Assembly: GCA_018623515.1 (NCBI GenBank)
Contig: JAAZVL010000012.1
Span: 1-37,836 of the forward strand
Reading direction: 5' to 3'
DNA length: 37,836 nt
Origin: Marinobacter sp.
Lineage (GTDB): Bacteria > Pseudomonadota > Gammaproteobacteria > Pseudomonadales > Oleiphilaceae
The notes under the pieces were generated by a model, which was not told the origin of the DNA, made no database searches, and saw only the letters and a program-made list of their open reading frames with translations. Below, piece by piece: positions 5,594-11,758 of the stretch. Position 1 is the stretch's first letter; the number at the start of each line of letters is the position of its first letter. A program made the translations under genes and the position numbers.

Positions 5594-6247
5594 TCAGCGG
5601 CTGACCAGATAATCCGCCAGCCGGCGGGTCAGGAATCCGGGCAGCAGCTTGTTGGTGAACCACAGGCTGCGGGCCCGCTTGCCGGGAATGATCAGGAACC
5701 GGCGCTGATCGATGCCCCGGCGAATCTGCTCGACGGCATACTCCACCGGCAACGTACCGGCCATCAGCTTCAGGGACTCGGTCTGTTTCGGCCGACTCTT
5801 GCGCTCCTCCACCACCAAGGGCGTCTCCACCTCCGGCGGACAGACCACAGACACATCGATACCCTTGGGCGCCAGCTCGATGCGCAACACTTCCGCCAGG
5901 CCAACCACACCGTATTTCGAGGCACTGTACGCCGAATACCCATAACAGCCGACCAGCCCGGCCATGGAGGCCACGAACACCAATTGGGCACCCGCCTTCA
6001 GATGCGGCAGCACCCCGGTCGCCACGTGCCGGGAGCCAAGCAGGTTGATGTTGATCAGCCGGGTACAGGCTTCATCGTCGATCTCGTCAAAAGGTGCAGC
6101 AATGCAGATACCGGCGCAGTGTATGACCACATCCGGTCCCTGCACCGCCGCAGCCTCGGAGAACACCGCCCGGACCGCGGCGGGGTCACTGACGTCCAGG
6201 GCAAAGGCGCGAACTGGTCGAACAGCCAATCGCTGCTCAAAGTCCAA
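5594..6247 (-). pseudogene. 5'-truncated short-chain dehydrogenase/reductase
   Basis: The 217 residues match the later part of a classical SDR. They include the D of strand 4 (FALDVSD), the NAG-type motif as VIHCAGI, the catalytic serine in VASMAGLVG, the YxxxK pair in YSAYSASKYG, and the PPEVETP segment. The roughly 50 N-terminal residues with the TGxxxGIG NAD(P)-binding loop are missing. The only available start is a TTG at 6247 inside the last codons of the upstream methyltransferase-HNH gene. A Rossmann enzyme without its first strand and glycine loop should be inactive, so I call it a pseudogene cut at the edge of the accessory operon. The C-terminus resembles SDRs of lipid or steroid type but the substrate is unknown. 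Confidence 0.72.
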
Positions 6248-7919
6248 GCCATTCTGCCAGCTGAAGGTTTGTCTTCAATCTTAAACGCTGCTGCAGCATG
6301 CCCTCGAATACACCGTCCGGAGTATGATTCTCACCGAGCAACGGCAGTGCCGCTTCCGCCTCCGAGTAGAACTGCTGCTCACGTTCCGTTCCGATGATGG
6401 CATGCTCCCACCACTCGATCACCCGCGGCCGGGCCTGTTTCAACAGCGAATCTGCCGGGAGCCTTTCGGACTTCGCGGCATTGGCGGTGTGGGAAGCAGG
6501 CAGCAGATTCCAAAGATCGTTATTGTTCCACCGGGACCAGGGAAAACAGTGGTCGATATCGTAGCGAACCCGTGACAAGTTTCTGGCTGTCCACACACAC
6601 TCCACTGAACCGGTAGACAGCTGTTGCTCCACCAGCTTGCGCACCACCGAGGTATCACGCCGCCCTTCTACCCACTGAAGCGCCTTGTGGTAAACCTCCG
6701 ACGAATAGCGAGCCTCCCAGCTGCCCATCAGGTTGATCCACTCATTCACAATGGCTGGCTCCACCCAGCAGGCGTAACGGCTGAAGGTATCCCAGAGCAT
6801 GGCAGGCACCCGGAAGCGCCCGAACCGCGCCAGGGTTTCCCTATCCAGCCGCACCGGCTCGTTACGAATGGTCAGTCGGTTTGCGCCACCCTCGAAAATC
6901 TGGCGATTCGTGCCCGGCCAGGTGGTGAAATGCGCCGGGTTCTTGAGAATGTTTGACGCCGCCAACCTGATAGCCCGCATGACCACCGGCGCAACCTCCG
7001 CCGACAGCGAAAGCCCTACACGGAAATCCAGCGGCGACAGCTTGCCCAGCTCGTAGAAGTCGTCCCCCGCAAAACCAAGCCCACGGGTACCCGGAGCCTG
7101 CCGTAAATGGTGTTTCAGCACCAATGGGTGATACAGCATGATCCAGAACAGACCGACTGCTCCCAGCGGGAGTTCCACCCAGTCATCCGACCGGTTCAGC
7201 ACCAGCCCCGGCGCGCTGTCGGCCATACGCACCAACGTTCGCAGCAGCCCAAGCTTGTAGGTGGAGGATTTGTTGTCATTGATGATGATATGCCGCAACG
7301 TGGGCAGCGCCCCGGTGCCATCGTCCGGCAAACGGTACGCGGCGGTTTCCCACCGCACATCCGCCCGTTTGAGTTCATCGGCACGGTGTGTATCCGGTAA
7401 CGGCACCGGCATAACCGCACGATGGCGGGCAAAACCGTCCAGCTCAGCTTTGGTGACCTCGTAGAACTTCCGCTCTCCATCCCCCGGCCCGTGGCGCAGA
7501 GTGATCACCAACATACCGGAGGGCGCCAAGAGCTCCGTCAGAATCCGGAACGCCCGCTCGCGGGAAGTGGGCGGAAGGTGCATCCAGACCGCAGACACCA
7601 ACACCAGATCAAACCGGTAACTGAGCTTGCGGATCTCGCTCAGGTCCGGCAGGGAATCATCCACCCACTGGATACTCCGGTGCGCTGTCGCCGCCTCCCC
7701 CAGGCGGCGCAGTTCCGTAGCCGGCTCCACCGCCACCACATCCCATCCACGCTCCGCCAGAGCCAGGGCATCGCGGCCACTACCGGCACCGACGTCCAGG
7801 GCAAGACCGGATTTCTTGTCCAGCAGGGGAAACCAGTCACCGTGGACCTGTTCGAAGGTCAGAGACTGGTATTGGGTGAAGAATTTCTGGGCGTTTTTGT
7901 TGTAAGGGGCGTAAGTCAT
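6237..7919 (-). CDS. SAM-dependent methyltransferase fused to an HNH endonuclease (putative defence protein)
   Basis: The protein has 560 residues from the ATG at 7919. Residues 1-170 form a class I methyltransferase: motif I is LDVGAGSGRD (41-50), followed by VVAVEPA and the motif IV/V region DLVLVSAVWMHL. Residues about 205-430 are a conserved-looking middle part that I cannot assign, starting near HIIINDNKSSTYKLGLLR. Residues 454-487 are an HNH nuclease: YDIDHCFPWSRWNNNDLWNL, then N and KSERLP. The start overlaps the TGA of the helicase gene as ATGA, so translation is coupled. Joining a modification and a cleavage domain in one chain, beside a PLD-helicase, suggests nucleic-acid restriction or quality control. 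Target and modified base are unknown. The upstream GTG or other starts (to 7949) would lie deep in the helicase gene and are less likely. Confidence 0.8.
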   Translation of the reverse strand: MTYAPYNKNAQKFFTQYQSLTFEQVHGDWFPLLDKKSGLALDVGAGSGRDALALAERGWDVVAVEPATELRRLGEAATAHRSIQWVDDSLPDLSEIRKLSYRFDLVLVSAVWMHLPPTSRERAFRILTELLAPSGMLVITLRHGPGDGERKFYEVTKAELDGFARHRAVMPVPLPDTHRADELKRADVRWETAAYRLPDDGTGALPTLRHIIINDNKSSTYKLGLLRTLVRMADSAPGLVLNRSDDWVELPLGAVGLFWIMLYHPLVLKHHLRQAPGTRGLGFAGDDFYELGKLSPLDFRVGLSLSAEVAPVVMRAIRLAASNILKNPAHFTTWPGTNRQIFEGGANRLTIRNEPVRLDRETLARFGRFRVPAMLWDTFSRYACWVEPAIVNEWINLMGSWEARYSSEVYHKALQWVEGRRDTSVVRKLVEQQLSTGSVECVWTARNLSRVRYDIDHCFPWSRWNNNDLWNLLPASHTANAAKSERLPADSLLKQARPRVIEWWEHAIIGTEREQQFYSEAEAALPLLGENHTPDGVFEGMLQQRLRLKTNLQLAEWLGL

Positions 7920-10900
7920 GCTACCGCTAACTTTGCAGCCTGTTGCCACATGAAGTGTGGCATAGGCGTACGGAGTTTCCAGGTAATACTCATTGGCTGG
8001 GAACCAGTGTGGGACACGTAGTCGACCTCGCCGTAATTCACAAAGCCCATCGTGCGGCCGTATTCGTCCTTCGCTCGCTCCCTGACAAACAGAAACAACC
8101 GTTTGTTGATCGAGCCGTGCTCAATGTAGCCCTTCCCTCGTCCGCGGTCGGGCCGGGCGCTATTTTGCGACTGCCAATGAAACAAATGCTCGTTTATGGC
8201 GTAATCCTGATACATGGTGGTCGGGGAAAATTGCTTTTCGTTTTTGTCTAACGTGACAAACAAGAGCTCGATATTCTGATCTTGAATTACAAAAACACCT
8301 TCTCTTGACGGAGGCTGGTGATCGAATGTCATTGCACCAAACCCAACCAGAATTTGCTCTCGAGAATAACGCGCATGCAAGCGCAAAGGGACTTGCTGCA
8401 AATCCGGCATGACTGGCTGCTCGTGCTTGGTCTGCAACAATTTCCAATCGAGCACATCAGACAGTTCTTGCCCGAGCCTTAATCTGTTGAGATCGGCCAA
8501 GCTCTGGGAAAGTGACTCAAACCCCAACTCAGGTCCAGCTTTTTGCCAGAAATCGTAATGACACATCAGCGCCCGACGACTTTCTACCTGGTCCCAAACA
8601 AATCCCGCCTGGCACAGCTTTTTAAGGAAAAGTAGATATTGGTGATCGTCACATATCAAAATCCGATTGTAGATCGCCTTCTTCGCCAGTTTGAATGCTG
8701 ACTCATCAACAACGTTCTCATCCCTGGCTTTACTGACCAGCTCTGACCAGCTGCCTCGCTTATACAGCTCATTGAGATCAATGTGTGGATGCTGAGTTAG
8801 AAAATTCTTAAGCGTCAGCGGCTGTGTTGAATGCTGGGGAAACTGGCGAACCAGAGATACCAGACGCTTTATAGTCAGAGTGGCCTGTCGAATGTTATTG
8901 AGCACCATCTCCTGGGTTTTCTTGGTCAGCTCAATCCGGCAACCCAACGGCGCATGAGGGAAACCTTGTTTCAGTTCGTCGCCAATCGAACGTTCTGACT
9001 TACCCACCAGCGCCCTGAATTTATTCGCAAAATCATACTCTGGCCGGGAATTGCCGACGAAATCCAGTACCGTGCAACAATCTTTGCCGTCGGCCAACCG
9101 CAGGCCACGGCCAAGCTGCTGCAAGAAAATGGTCAAACTCTCCGTTGGACGGAGAAACAGCAGAGTATCAACTTCCGGAATGTCGACGCCTTCGTTGAAA
9201 ATATCGACCACACACAACACGTTGATCTGCCCGGACCGAAGGCCTTGCTGCTTTTGCTGGCGTTCATGGCTGTTGTCACTGGTTAACACATCAGCCTTGA
9301 TGCCATGAAGCAGGAGCTGCTGAACCATAAAATTCGCGTGATCGCGGCTCACGCAGAATGCCAATGCCTTCATGGCGCTTATATCGGTGACGATTTCCCG
9401 CAAACTGCGCAGAATCTTTTTTACTCGGTCATGGTTGTGCGTGTACAAGTTGGTTAGCTGAACGGGATCGTAACGACCACGATTCCACGGAATGGTGCGA
9501 AGATCTGTGTCGTCATCAACTCCGAAGTATTGGAATGGGCATAGATGGCGACGGTTGATCGCTTCTGGCAAGCGAAGCTCTGCCGCAATGACGCCTCCAA
9601 AGTCGTCGAGAATATCGCCACCATCATGCCGCTCCGGTGTTGCCGTCAGCCCCACCAGTATCGAAGGCGAAAAATGCGCAAGGACGGCTCGATAACTTGA
9701 TGCGGCGATATGGTGCACCTCATCAATCACGATGTAATCGTAGTAATCCGGTGTCAGTTTCAGCTGATCCAGTTGGTTGTTTAAAGTCTGGATTGATACG
9801 AACAACTGGCGGTAATGATCAGGCAGTTGTCCTCCTACCCATAGCTCGCCAAAAGCGCTATCTCTCAACACTCCCCGGTAGGCTTCACGAGCCTGTCGTA
9901 GAATTTCCTCCCGATGTGCAACAAAGAGAAAATTAGCGTTGGGTTTCGCTTTCAAAAATCGGTGGAAATCAAAGGCCGAAATCAGCGTCTTGCCGGTACC
10001 TGTGGCAGCGACGATGAGGTTTCGATAACGCTGGTGCACTTCCCGTTCCACAGAAAGCTGCTCCAGAATGTCCTTCTGGTGAGGAAACGGCGTAATATCA
10101 AAAAAATGCACTGCGCCAGGATCATCCCATCCTTTCTGCTGTTTCAGTGCACGCTTGAGTTTCTCTGCACTTTCCGCCTGCCCATCAAAACGCTCAAATT
10201 CGTCTGAAGCCCAATAGGTTTCAAAGGTGCTGAAGGACTTATTGATAATGTGCGGAATTTCCTGAGACGTAATCTTCAGGTTCCATTCAAGCCCGTTGGT
10301 CAAAGCCGAGCGGGAGAGGTTTGATGATCCGATGTAGCCGGTGTGATAACCCGAATTTCTGAGGAACAGATAGCTTTTGGCGTGCAGCCTCTCGCGCTCA
10401 GTGTTGTAGCTCAGCCTCACTTCGGTATTCGGCAAGCTGGCCAAATACTCAACTGCCCTCGGATCTGTTGCGCCCATATAGGATGTGGTGATGATTTTCA
10501 GCTCGCGACCACTGGCGGTAAAGGCTTCCAGTTCTTTCCTGAATATACGAATCCCGGCCCATTTGATAAATGAAACCAGCCAGTAAATCTTGTCCGCTGA
10601 CAGAATCTCGCGCTTCAATTCGGACTCGAGTGACAGGCCCGCATTACTTCCCGAGAACAGCTCACTTTGGGTGAGCCCCGTGAGAGGGAAAATGTCTTCT
10701 ACATATCGTTTTAGGTCAGCTGCAACAGGGTTCTCCAGCTCGTACAGAGCGGTCAGAATTTTTCCCTGGCTATCAAGAAGGTTCTCTTCCAGAAACCCGT
10801 CGTCCTGAATCTGACCCTTGAGCCACATCAGCAGTTGATTTGAAAGCTCAATTTGCTCTTGCAGTCGGTTTTCGCCCATGGGCACTGACTCAATGGCAAA

Positions 10901-11047
10901 CTCAAGAATATTAGACAGGAATCGAGACAACCACACCGACGCTTCCGCGCTGCTGAGCTGACGCTCGCCAACGTAGAACTTTTCCCGATCAAGGCGGCTC
11001 TCGATCAGCTTCGTAATTAGCTGCTCGTAAATTCCGGTTTGCTGCAT
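7916..11047 (-). CDS. PLD-family nuclease / SF2 DEAD-box-like helicase with DUF3427 C-terminus (putative defence protein)
   Basis: This is a 1043-residue multidomain protein. After an N-terminal helical region, residues 130-290 form a phospholipase D-type nuclease with one HxK motif (LHAKSYLF, 221-228) and GSSN (240-243). Residues 315-660 form a superfamily 2 helicase: Walker A AATGTGKT (347-354), DEVHH (442-446), LTATPER (467-473), and motif VI QQLGRGLR (643-650). Residues from about 690 to the end match DUF3427, including LFVTLDK, FSPTTMYQDYAI and LFHWQSQNS. Only one HKD half is present, so a dimer would be needed for PLD catalysis. The ATG at 11047 overlaps the preceding stop (TGATG). The DNA is visibly more AT-rich than its flanks, which points to horizontal acquisition. 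A role in cutting foreign DNA is inferred. Confidence 0.85.
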   Translation of the reverse strand: MQQTGIYEQLITKLIESRLDREKFYVGERQLSSAEASVWLSRFLSNILEFAIESVPMGENRLQEQIELSNQLLMWLKGQIQDDGFLEENLLDSQGKILTALYELENPVAADLKRYVEDIFPLTGLTQSELFSGSNAGLSLESELKREILSADKIYWLVSFIKWAGIRIFRKELEAFTASGRELKIITTSYMGATDPRAVEYLASLPNTEVRLSYNTERERLHAKSYLFLRNSGYHTGYIGSSNLSRSALTNGLEWNLKITSQEIPHIINKSFSTFETYWASDEFERFDGQAESAEKLKRALKQQKGWDDPGAVHFFDITPFPHQKDILEQLSVEREVHQRYRNLIVAATGTGKTLISAFDFHRFLKAKPNANFLFVAHREEILRQAREAYRGVLRDSAFGELWVGGQLPDHYRQLFVSIQTLNNQLDQLKLTPDYYDYIVIDEVHHIAASSYRAVLAHFSPSILVGLTATPERHDGGDILDDFGGVIAAELRLPEAINRRHLCPFQYFGVDDDTDLRTIPWNRGRYDPVQLTNLYTHNHDRVKKILRSLREIVTDISAMKALAFCVSRDHANFMVQQLLLHGIKADVLTSDNSHERQQKQQGLRSGQINVLCVVDIFNEGVDIPEVDTLLFLRPTESLTIFLQQLGRGLRLADGKDCCTVLDFVGNSRPEYDFANKFRALVGKSERSIGDELKQGFPHAPLGCRIELTKKTQEMVLNNIRQATLTIKRLVSLVRQFPQHSTQPLTLKNFLTQHPHIDLNELYKRGSWSELVSKARDENVVDESAFKLAKKAIYNRILICDDHQYLLFLKKLCQAGFVWDQVESRRALMCHYDFWQKAGPELGFESLSQSLADLNRLRLGQELSDVLDWKLLQTKHEQPVMPDLQQVPLRLHARYSREQILVGFGAMTFDHQPPSREGVFVIQDQNIELLFVTLDKNEKQFSPTTMYQDYAINEHLFHWQSQNSARPDRGRGKGYIEHGSINKRLFLFVRERAKDEYGRTMGFVNYGEVDYVSHTGSQPMSITWKLRTPMPHFMWQQAAKLAVA

Positions 11048-11160
11048 CACATAGGTCCTTTTTGATGCAGCTCACCACAGATCTCATCCATGGCAACCTC
11101 AAAGGTGGACTCCACAAACGCTTCGGCGTTGTTGTCGTAATAGCCTAGCGTATCGGACAT
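11047..11160 (-). CDS. 37-residue methyltransferase-like stub heading the accessory operon
   Basis: This ORF, too short for most gene callers, reads MSDTLGYYDNNAEAFVES, then TFEVAMDEICGELHQKGPM and TGA. It has a good ribosome site (AAGGAAA about 8 bases before the ATG), and its stop overlaps the start of the helicase gene as TGATG. The first 30 residues resemble the N-terminus of class I SAM methyltransferases of the YYDxNAxxFVxxTxxVDM type; all SAM-binding motifs are absent. It is therefore either a deletion remnant of a methyltransferase gene or a retained leader peptide that delivers ribosomes to the helicase. No function as a protein is claimed. Confidence 0.5.
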   Translation of the reverse strand: MSDTLGYYDNNAEAFVESTFEVAMDEICGELHQKGPM

Positions 11161-11220
11161 GGGACAGTTTCCTTACTACTAATTCGTGCCGCATTGTTCC
11201 TGACCAGGTTATCAGCAGGT

Positions 11221-11250
11221 CCCGAGATCGCCAAGTTGCATGATCTCGGG
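11221..11250. repeat. Perfect 9-bp inverted repeat in the divergent intergenic region
   Basis: CCCGAGATC (11221-11229) and GATCTCGGG (11242-11250) are exact inverted copies around a 12-base loop. There is no T tract, so a rho-independent terminator is unlikely. The element lies 61 bases before the start of the accessory operon and 43 bases before the thioesterase start. A weak leftward promoter (TTGGCG, 17 bases, TAACCT) would use its loop and right arm. It may be an operator for the operon, but that is inference. Confidence 0.45.
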
Positions 11251-11293
11251 AATCAGTTAGCCTTGAAACCTCATTCGACCGCATCAGTGAACC

Positions 11294-11758
11294 ATGACCG
11301 AAAACAACAGCTCCCCTTTCAAATTCCGCTTCCGGGTCCGCTACGGAGAGTGCGATGCCCAGGGCGTCGTCTTCAACGCCCGCTATGCGGATTTTGTGGA
11401 CATTTCCGTCAACGAATACATCCGGGCCGTGTTCGGTGACTACCAGCGCCTGCTGGATCAGGATCTGGACGTTCAGGTGGTGAGCCTCACGGTGAACTGG
11501 AAAGCGCCCGCCCGGTTTGATGATGTGCTGGAAGCGAGGATTCGTACCGGGCGCATCGGCAACACGTCGTTCACCCTGCATCTGGAGTTTTATCGCTACG
11601 GGGATGGCCAGTTCATCGCCGATGCGGACATCACCGATGTGATGATACGGTCATCGAGCATGTCCAAGGTGTCCATTCCGGATCATATCCGGGAGCAGCT
11701 CACCGAGGGTGCACCGGGGGTACTGATCAGTCACGCGGGTGAGCAAGCGCCCTACTGA
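11294..11758 (+). CDS. Acyl-CoA thioesterase, 4HBT hotdog family
   Basis: This is a 154-residue single hotdog domain protein of the 4-hydroxybenzoyl-CoA thioesterase/YbgC type. The signature RVRYGECDAQGVVFNARYADF carries the catalytic Asp region, followed by the long helix DFVDISVNEYIRAV. Strand segments VSLTVNWKAPARFDDVLEARI and TSFTLHLEFYR complete the fold. Such enzymes hydrolyse acyl-CoA or aryl-CoA esters; the substrate is unknown. It is the first gene rightward of the accessory operon, and the nitronate monooxygenase follows 19 bases later, suggesting one transcript. Confidence 0.85.
   Translation: MTENNSSPFKFRFRVRYGECDAQGVVFNARYADFVDISVNEYIRAVFGDYQRLLDQDLDVQVVSLTVNWKAPARFDDVLEARIRTGRIGNTSFTLHLEFYRYGDGQFIADADITDVMIRSSSMSKVSIPDHIREQLTEGAPGVLISHAGEQAPY

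Follow-up and report, generated by a model that had tools for sequence, protein, structure and literature searches.

A SauUSI-type restriction enzyme and its methyltransferase-HNH partner: a probable exchangeable restriction cassette in Marinobacter

Among described systems, the closest to the locus analyzed here is SauUSI. According to the accessible part of PMC3874153, this enzyme cuts DNA carrying 5-methylcytosine (m5C) or 5-hydroxymethylcytosine (hm5C) in an ATP-dependent manner, requires two sites and is presented there as working without a partner. The available text of PMC7913695 describes it as a dimer with an SRA-fold recognition domain, and DUF3427 is predicted, in the accessible part of PMC7159879, to bind modified DNA. 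Here we analyze a stretch of 37,836 nucleotides (the window) from Marinobacter sp. (contig JAAZVL010000012.1, assembly GCA_018623515.1; G000 in our survey, 303 contigs, 88.76% complete), in which a PLD-helicase-DUF3427 gene is overlapped by a gene for a methyltransferase-HNH fusion whose nearest named loci are from Marinobacter. We have labeled these genes HEL and MTHNH for the purposes of this analysis. The overlapping pair varies the known SauUSI-type Type IV design in a new way, and we consider it probable that it works as an exchangeable two-gene restriction (anti-phage or anti-plasmid) cassette, made of a SauUSI-type nuclease and a methyltransferase-HNH partner. The core enzyme is of a known kind; what is new to us is the fusion partner, the site at which systems swap and the pattern of exclusion described below. 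If this reading is right, a Type IV enzyme, usually seen as a lone modification reader, can have as partner a methyltransferase of small-molecule type that is joined to another nuclease, and such pairs replace each other at a chromosomal site.

HEL carries PLDc_2, ResIII (residues 318-473), Helicase_C (548-651) and DUF3427 domains, all above the Pfam cut-offs (see Table 1 for the first and last). Its best match in PADLOC is mREase_IV, the model for Type IV enzymes, with an E-value of 3.5e-227 across residues 119-1040; other matches, to DrmC and BrxH, are weak. Among solved sequences, PDB 7clg is the closest (E 1.4e-80); its entry names a putative helicase, 953 amino acids long, which we identify with SauUSI from this length and from the HxK(X)4E motif and the residue numbering given in the accessible part of PMC7913695. 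Aligning both proteins, we found the HxK, GSSN and helicase motifs kept, and all 19 PLD-helicases that we aligned, the window included, have the helicase motifs as well as HxK and GS(S/A)N. The motifs of a superfamily 2 (SF2) DExH ATPase are intact in HEL (ATGTGKT, DEVHH, TATPER and QQLGRGLR). Because Pfam, PADLOC, the 7clg alignment and the motifs agree, we assign HEL by its predicted architecture to the SauUSI-type, modification-dependent Type IV restriction enzymes, as a new member; the initial annotation had recognized no named system here. Both enzymes are single polypeptides with the order PLD nuclease, SF2 ATPase, coupler and C-terminal DUF3427/SRA. HEL differs in an N-terminal extension of about 100 residues, in a C-terminal domain only weakly similar in sequence to that of SauUSI (9.3 bits), and in the methyltransferase-HNH gene that overlaps it. 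The dN/dS of HEL was 0.094-0.096 against the loci L014 and L045, and values of 0.07-0.10 against the two nearest relatives, for HEL and MTHNH alike, indicate purifying selection.

The first 199 residues of MTHNH form a class I methyltransferase (Methyltransf_11 and Methyltransf_25 above the Pfam cut-offs) that resembles TehB, NNMT and TPMT by sequence or fold; in fold it comes closest to methyltransferases acting on small molecules, peptides and tRNA. DNA N-methylases carry (D/N/S)PP(Y/F/W) at motif IV. That of MTHNH reads VSAVWMH, which is no DNA-methylase motif, and DNA-methylase profiles gave no match to the protein. An intact modification domain that protects self DNA had been proposed initially; on this evidence, self-protection by DNA methylation is not supported. 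The C-terminal part contains an HNH_4 domain above the Pfam cut-off, with a weak likeness to the HNH of Cas9. AlphaFold2 modeled the whole protein with a predicted local distance difference test (pLDDT) of 89 and a predicted template modeling score (pTM) of 0.85, and the C-terminal half with values of 90 and 0.90. Foldseek with the whole model gave only methyltransferases among the matches listed, and a search with the C-terminal half gave no solved-fold match for the middle 250 residues or so (best E 0.16). We compared 47 sequences, made up of the window's MTHNH and 46 homologues with 39-94% identity to it. Residues G44, G48, R49, D50 and D88 of the S-adenosylmethionine (SAM) site do not vary among them and E65 hardly does; in the HNH domain, D456, H457, N471, N480 and K483 are likewise the same in all 47. 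Beyond the SAM site, R122 and R125 are invariant and W112 and M113 are present in at least 90%; these four residues may serve catalysis.

No PADLOC model spans more than one domain of MTHNH, and PHROGs gave only generic methyltransferase or helicase families or families without known function. In the titles and abstract openings listed by our searches of an open-licence library we found no description of the HEL-MTHNH pair or of the fusion; DUF3427 is named in two papers there. The PADLOC model for mad2 of MADS (PDLC04134) resembles the methyltransferase (E 9.4e-13), only across residues 32-184 in the 569-residue numbering, and MADS membership was ruled out, as the window genes that we scanned include no other MADS gene. 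TagI (PMC6212794) and other Type IV enzymes of SRA-HNH type have in common with MTHNH an HNH beside a presumed DNA-reading domain. MTHNH differs in giving no Pfam match to SRA and in a C-terminal half without a solved fold under E 0.16. A cognate DNA methyltransferase, as in classical restriction-modification of Types I to III, was not found either, the domain being TehB/NNMT-like. DISARM has a core of DrmAB with a DNA methylase, and BREX one of PglZ with BrxC. Both were ruled out for the window, where HEL gives only the weak DrmC and BrxH matches and the ten flanking genes none of this kind.

These data suggest how the cassette might work. With its C-terminal DUF3427, HEL would recognize a modified base on DNA entering the cell; the SF2 motor would travel along the DNA with ATP, and the paired PLD domains would cut. 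MTHNH, translated from the overlapping ATGA, would bring a second nuclease, its HNH, controlled by the SAM-dependent methyltransferase domain of small-molecule type; this domain might have a modified nucleotide or a group on DNA as its target, or SAM might serve it as a signal. At the exchange site, functionally overlapping systems would swap: an MT10 gene (described below), a McrBC-like pair with MTHNH, HEL with MTHNH, or nothing.

To what extent HEL and MTHNH go together was surveyed in 124 Marinobacter genomes, counting HEL at an identity of at least 83%. HEL is present in 24 of them (in G002, G005 and G116 it is split or interrupted by a contig end, and in G088 it is broken), and MTHNH matches were found in 47, covering at least 555 of the 560 residues in 32 (one with a stop), the rest being fragments. 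Directly behind HEL lies an intact MTHNH in 16 genomes (HEL itself being broken in one, G088), a broken one in G032 and the methyltransferase part alone in G018, G114 and G124; G139 has a 49-residue remnant there and another full MTHNH elsewhere, and in G116 the position falls off the contig. A scan of genome contigs gave 84 MTHNH relatives, of which 80 were kept as 77 distinct loci, with titles naming Proteobacteria, Acidobacteria, Nitrospirae, Cyanobacteria, Rhodothermales and others, many of them metagenome-assembled genomes (MAGs). HEL lies directly upstream in 13, all from Marinobacter (HEL broken in L021, MTHNH in L039). Besides, a MAG labeled Saccharibacteria (L047) has genes 37% identical to HEL and 44% to MTHNH side by side, in divergent orientation. 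Hence, the co-occurrence that had been set as a check on the initial annotation holds within the genus, while outside it the genes are mostly apart. The whole MTHNH model was matched in five genomes of a class sample of 369, and a sixth has most of it at the edge of a contig, these figures including the window's genome. The family is a candidate single-gene or accessory defence protein.

The three leftward open reading frames (ORFs) of the initial annotation are indeed joined by TGATG and ATGA overlaps: the TGA of a short stub shares one base with the HEL ATG (11049-11045), and the conserved MTHNH start is the ATG at 7919, within the ATGA formed with the HEL stop (7919-7916), giving 560 residues. 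The longer GTG start listed at 7946 lies upstream of it. In ten more HEL-MTHNH loci both genes run without internal stops around the same junction. The stub had been taken as the first of three operon genes. By tblastn it is 70% identical over 30 residues (E 1e-11) to a protein that we label MT10, for which we found no published name, and in G087 the DNA corresponding to window positions 11064-11293 is 91% identical and runs into a complete MT10 gene of 1280 codons, between the same 4HBT and SDR genes. Because of this match, of the G087 DNA and of the HEL genes found at other sites without it, we read the stub as a relic of a displaced MT10-type system and not as an operon gene: it comprises the first 30 codons or so of a methyltransferase-PLD-helicase gene displaced at this site. 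A leader of about 20 bp recurs before the HEL ATG in most loci compared, mostly with 14-18 of 24 bases shared with L003 (12 in the window, all 24 in L039, and a chance-like 8-9 in L009, L016 and L025), which makes it probable that the final few codons of the stub are part of HEL. A codon comparison of the stub gave dN 0.06-0.23, over a length too short to judge selection.

MT10 (Pfam order Methyltransf_25, PLDc_2, ResIII, Helicase_C, Peptidase_S24 and DUF3427, as read for L147) shares with HEL-MTHNH the PLD-helicase-DUF3427 body, a TehB-like methyltransferase, the exchange site and the PADLOC assignment to mREase_IV. Unlike the pair, it has the methyltransferase fused N-terminally, an extra Peptidase_S24-like domain and no HNH; it is 38-39% identical to HEL across the PLD-helicase part. 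The presence of a Peptidase_S24-like (LexA-type) domain inside a restriction enzyme, at L147:2372-6211 and also in L099, L100 and L101, is an observation in its own right, as is the putative addiction-module antitoxin that lies with a ParE-like gene (just under the Pfam cut-off) between MT10 and SDR in G087 (L147, 1787-2325). At the same site, G115 and G122 have the stub, HEL and MTHNH as in the window, and in G140 it holds MTHNH together with an 81-codon MT10 remnant and two genes of the types MrcB_N/AAA_5 and DUF2357/PDDEXK_7. G074 has nothing there, its 4HBT and SDR matches lying 200 bp apart. McrBC is a GTP-dependent AAA+ enzyme. In G140 the McrBC-type genes, with a different nuclease, hold the position of HEL before MTHNH. 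In L014, L045 and L015, the DNA separating MTHNH from SDR showed nothing that could be read with confidence as a leftover of the C-terminal end of MT10.

Several observations point to horizontal exchange of the pieces. The DNA upstream of the HEL ATG differs, beyond the leader, between most insertion sites, and solitary MTHNH genes have sharp ends at several unrelated ones. In L027, L029 and L031, HEL and the first 100 bp or so of MTHNH come from one source and the rest resembles solitary MTHNH genes: over that first part, in 50-bp steps, L029 is 92 and 82% identical to L016 and 66 and 66% to the solitary L030, while over the next 500 bp it is 82-96% identical to L030, and 90-93% over the remainder. 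This mosaic indicates that HEL recombined onto a resident MTHNH. The GC content is 0.503 in HEL, 0.604 in MTHNH and about 0.60-0.63 in the nearby flanks, so only HEL is compositionally foreign; the AT-richness initially ascribed to the whole operon applies to HEL and does not extend to MTHNH. Likewise, a gene cut short on the left is present, since SDR lacks 62 codons in the window, but the cassette did not create this border. SDR is whole beside MTHNH in G115, G122, G002 and G140, so that cassette insertion was ruled out as the cause by the relatives with the same cassette (the first three), and the gene was cut by a deletion of about 280 bp behind the MTHNH stop. The deletion is seen in one draft assembly, where an assembly error is possible, and the truncated SDR is probably inactive. 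A scan for promoters and terminators gave no signal exceeding the shuffled background. Taken together, the claim of an accessory, horizontally exchanged and probably anti-phage or anti-plasmid unit with two different nuclease domains is supported.

We also followed the distribution of MT10 in the genus. The first-look searches scored five or six candidates per genome, and re-searching MT10 with its own sequence left the list of 26 genomes out of 124 unchanged (24 whole, one broken, one on two contigs). That search matched 55 genomes, 24 of which were HEL matches, and five were not counted as MT10: G140 (the 81-codon remnant), G138 (a C-terminal remnant) and G022, G098 and G061 (the methyltransferase part, about 50% identical; G061 also has a broken MTHNH). 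MT10 shares no genome with any MTHNH match (26 versus 47 genomes, 9.9 shared expected, hypergeometric P = 5.9e-7), with near-complete MTHNH (26 versus 32, 6.7 expected, P = 1.4e-4) or with HEL (26 versus 24, 5.0 expected, P = 0.0018). We also fitted gain and loss rates on a single-gene Mfd tree covering 110 of the 124 genomes and ran 1500 simulations. The simulated overlap with MT10 averaged 10.98, 7.60 and 5.63 genomes for any MTHNH, near-complete MTHNH and HEL, and zero overlap arose in 0/1500, 0/1500 and about 0.13% of the runs, respectively. Because MT10 occupies different sites across the four loci compared (L099, L100, L101 and L147) and MTHNH several, competition for a single site cannot by itself explain the exclusion; redundancy or incompatibility would each do so. 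That MTHNH and MT10 do not occur together offers a testable hint of a function shared through the methyltransferase.

Some results weigh against a functional cassette. In SauUSI the HxK(X)4E motif ends in an acidic residue, which is a Leu in HEL, at a position that varies among the 19 aligned proteins. The surroundings of the pair are housekeeping genes and no defence island. G005 and G111 (the latter 82% complete) have HEL without MTHNH behind it, and 63 of the 77 MTHNH loci have no HEL in the flanking DNA covered, several contigs being short. Outside Marinobacter, BLAST found neither methyltransferase domain in the listed neighbours of the seven HEL-like genes of the class sample (the flank in G401 is short), and there is no annotated methyltransferase neighbour at the three HEL plasmid loci examined or beside a more distant DUF3427 gene of Paracoccus. 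It is possible, if less likely, that HEL and MTHNH are independent, self-sufficient defence genes that travel together, their ATGA junction having arisen once in Marinobacter and spread by recombination. Each is mostly solitary elsewhere, SauUSI requires no partner according to the accessible part of PMC3874153, and HEL has been set onto a different MTHNH allele with a crossover about 100 bp into the gene. Yet, despite this free exchange, the gene behind HEL is an intact MTHNH in 16 of the 24 genomes, MTHNH and MT10 exclude each other with only the methyltransferase type in common, and such a methyltransferase is linked to some PLD-helicases in further arrangements.

These arrangements come mainly from the 14 other genomes of the class sample with DUF3427 genes. 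The seven HEL-like genes and four of SauUSI length have no methyltransferase-domain match in the neighbours listed, and the three of MT10 type have a methyltransferase that is convergent in G233, upstream and overlapping in G491 and fused in G465. A methyltransferase 45-48% identical to the MTHNH domain overlaps PLD-helicase genes in G289 and G491 and is convergent in G233; the G289 partner is a PLD-helicase-S24 ORF without a DUF3427 match. In MT10, a methyltransferase of MTHNH type, 28% related, is fused to the PLD-helicase. MTHNH itself or its split form lies elsewhere on the contig of the HEL-like gene in G216 and G431. In the latter (L165, 2847-6149) we observed a PD-(D/E)XK gene (PADLOC PDC-S26) followed by a 224-residue methyltransferase and a separate 369-residue HNH_4 protein, which together are a split MTHNH next to a candidate defence gene. 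A bolder proposal, which we regard as doubtful, is that TehB-like methyltransferases are the shared control unit of an unnamed anti-phage class, distinct both from classical restriction-modification and from plain Type IV. In it, one type of SAM-using domain would license interchangeable nucleases, and two units would not coexist, being redundant or mutually toxic. Its nucleases would be PLD-helicase-DUF3427 (fused in MT10, separate in G491 and G233), PLD-helicase-S24 (beside the methyltransferase in G289) and HNH (fused in MTHNH, separate in G431), or both PLD-helicase-DUF3427 and HNH in the window.

It is unlikely that the methyltransferase sets a self/non-self mark, an unconventional modification of host DNA or nucleotides that blocks the system's own nucleases while HNH or PLD enzymes cut unmarked DNA. 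Restriction-modification systems leave solitary methylases behind. Decaying MTHNH genes tend, in the same way, to retain the methyltransferase (ORFs of 197-240 residues in G018, G114, G124, G083 and G021), the HNH end alone is found in a single genome (G134) and others keep shorter methyltransferase pieces; incompatible marks would also fit the exclusion of MT10. The lack of a DNA-methylase profile match or motif, the small-molecule, peptide and tRNA methyltransferases among the fold neighbours and the HEL genes without a methyltransferase in G005 and G111 all argue against a mark. So does the dN/dS of 0.33 in the pair L093/L096, which suggests relaxed selection. This pair is among the MTHNH genes without the HNH part (L091-L096 and L098), six of which keep the methyltransferase ORF (disturbed at its start in L096), L098 having 49 residues; L095 and L098 are internal deletions, because the last 12-15 MTHNH codons are retained.

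Quite unlikely, too, is a role of the SAM-binding domain as a sensor, by which MTHNH and MT10 would monitor SAM and release the nuclease upon its loss. Phages have SAM-degrading enzymes, one way in which SAM could be lost. The invariant or nearly invariant SAM-site residues in the 47 sequences and the joining of the same domain type to unrelated nucleases are consistent with sensing, while R122 and R125, together with W112 and M113, may be catalytic, which speaks against it. HNH domains are common among homing enzymes, and the sharp cassette ends by the MTHNH start and stop codons at several unrelated Marinobacter sites would suit a selfish mobile nuclease of homing type without a defence role. 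We hold this to be very unlikely given the conserved methyltransferase domain, the purifying selection, the lack of an obvious common target in the flanks compared by eye (no motif search was run) and the near absence from viral records. Beyond the cassette ends, most flanks are unrelated to each other. Finally, a housekeeping DNA repair operon with a RadD-type helicase is highly improbable: the RadD model matches the helicase part of HEL at 7.1e-29, well under its cut-off (100.5 of 720 bits), and HEL has PLD and DUF3427 domains, is patchy (24/124 genomes, 20 Fitch changes on 110 tips) and coexists with a separate RadD-sized helicase (an open frame of 609 residues) at G000:C145.

Table 1. Coordinates of the features in the window.
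Feature	Position	Strand	Basis
HEL, PLD-ATPase-DUF3427, 1043 residues	7916..11047	minus	ATG at 11047, stop at 7916; Pfam, PADLOC, 7clg match, motifs, dN/dS
PLD nuclease domain of HEL, residues 146-273, with HxK (HAK, residues 222-224) and GSSN	10229..10612	minus	Pfam, alignments
DUF3427 domain of HEL, residues 838-1036, predicted modified-DNA recognition	7940..8536	minus	Pfam E 1.2e-28; SRA fold in SauUSI according to the accessible part of PMC7913695
MTHNH, methyltransferase-HNH fusion, 560 residues	6237..7919	minus	ORF, Pfam, conservation, AlphaFold2 model (pLDDT 89)
Predicted SAM-binding class I methyltransferase core of MTHNH, residues 41-139	7503..7799	minus	Methyltransf_11/25; TehB/NNMT/TPMT-like fold
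HNH_4 domain of MTHNH, residues 447-488 (DIDHCFPW...NNDLWNLLPA...N..K)	6456..6581	minus	Pfam E 2.6e-9; invariant residues; weak Cas9-HNH similarity
Stub, 37 residues, MT10 remnant outside the functional unit	11047..11160	minus	70% over 30 residues to MT10, E 1e-11; G087 comparison
SDR gene without its first 62 codons, left flank	about 5594..6217	minus	Pfam; comparison with relatives
4HBT thioesterase, right flank of the exchange site	11294..11758	plus	Pfam

Regarding the remaining neighbours of MTHNH, we listed 153 near ones and scanned 108, as tallies from which no enrichment is claimed. In loci without HEL, genes for a C5 DNA methylase, for AIPR and for PDC-S36/NOV_C appeared three times each among those scanned. 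A divergent NOV_C gene of 283 codons (PADLOC PDC-S36, E 1.9e-110 for L019) adjoins MTHNH upstream in L017, L019 and L023, and in L017 it occupies the same place as HEL in L018. A phage-borne origin of the pair was rejected after searches of viral data: using peptide patterns, we confirmed no HEL in viral contigs (phage records were not searched for HEL) and found one partial MTHNH match there, to the HNH part, and one of 50,697 phage records had an MTHNH-related match, to the methyltransferase only. This last match is Orf3 of Escherichia phage phi458 (L131, 2336-3519), a methyltransferase-only relative (37.6%) of the MTHNH domain. It overlaps Orf2, an unclassified gene near the integrase whose product looks membrane-anchored by eye, and the two are a possible prophage-borne defence pair.

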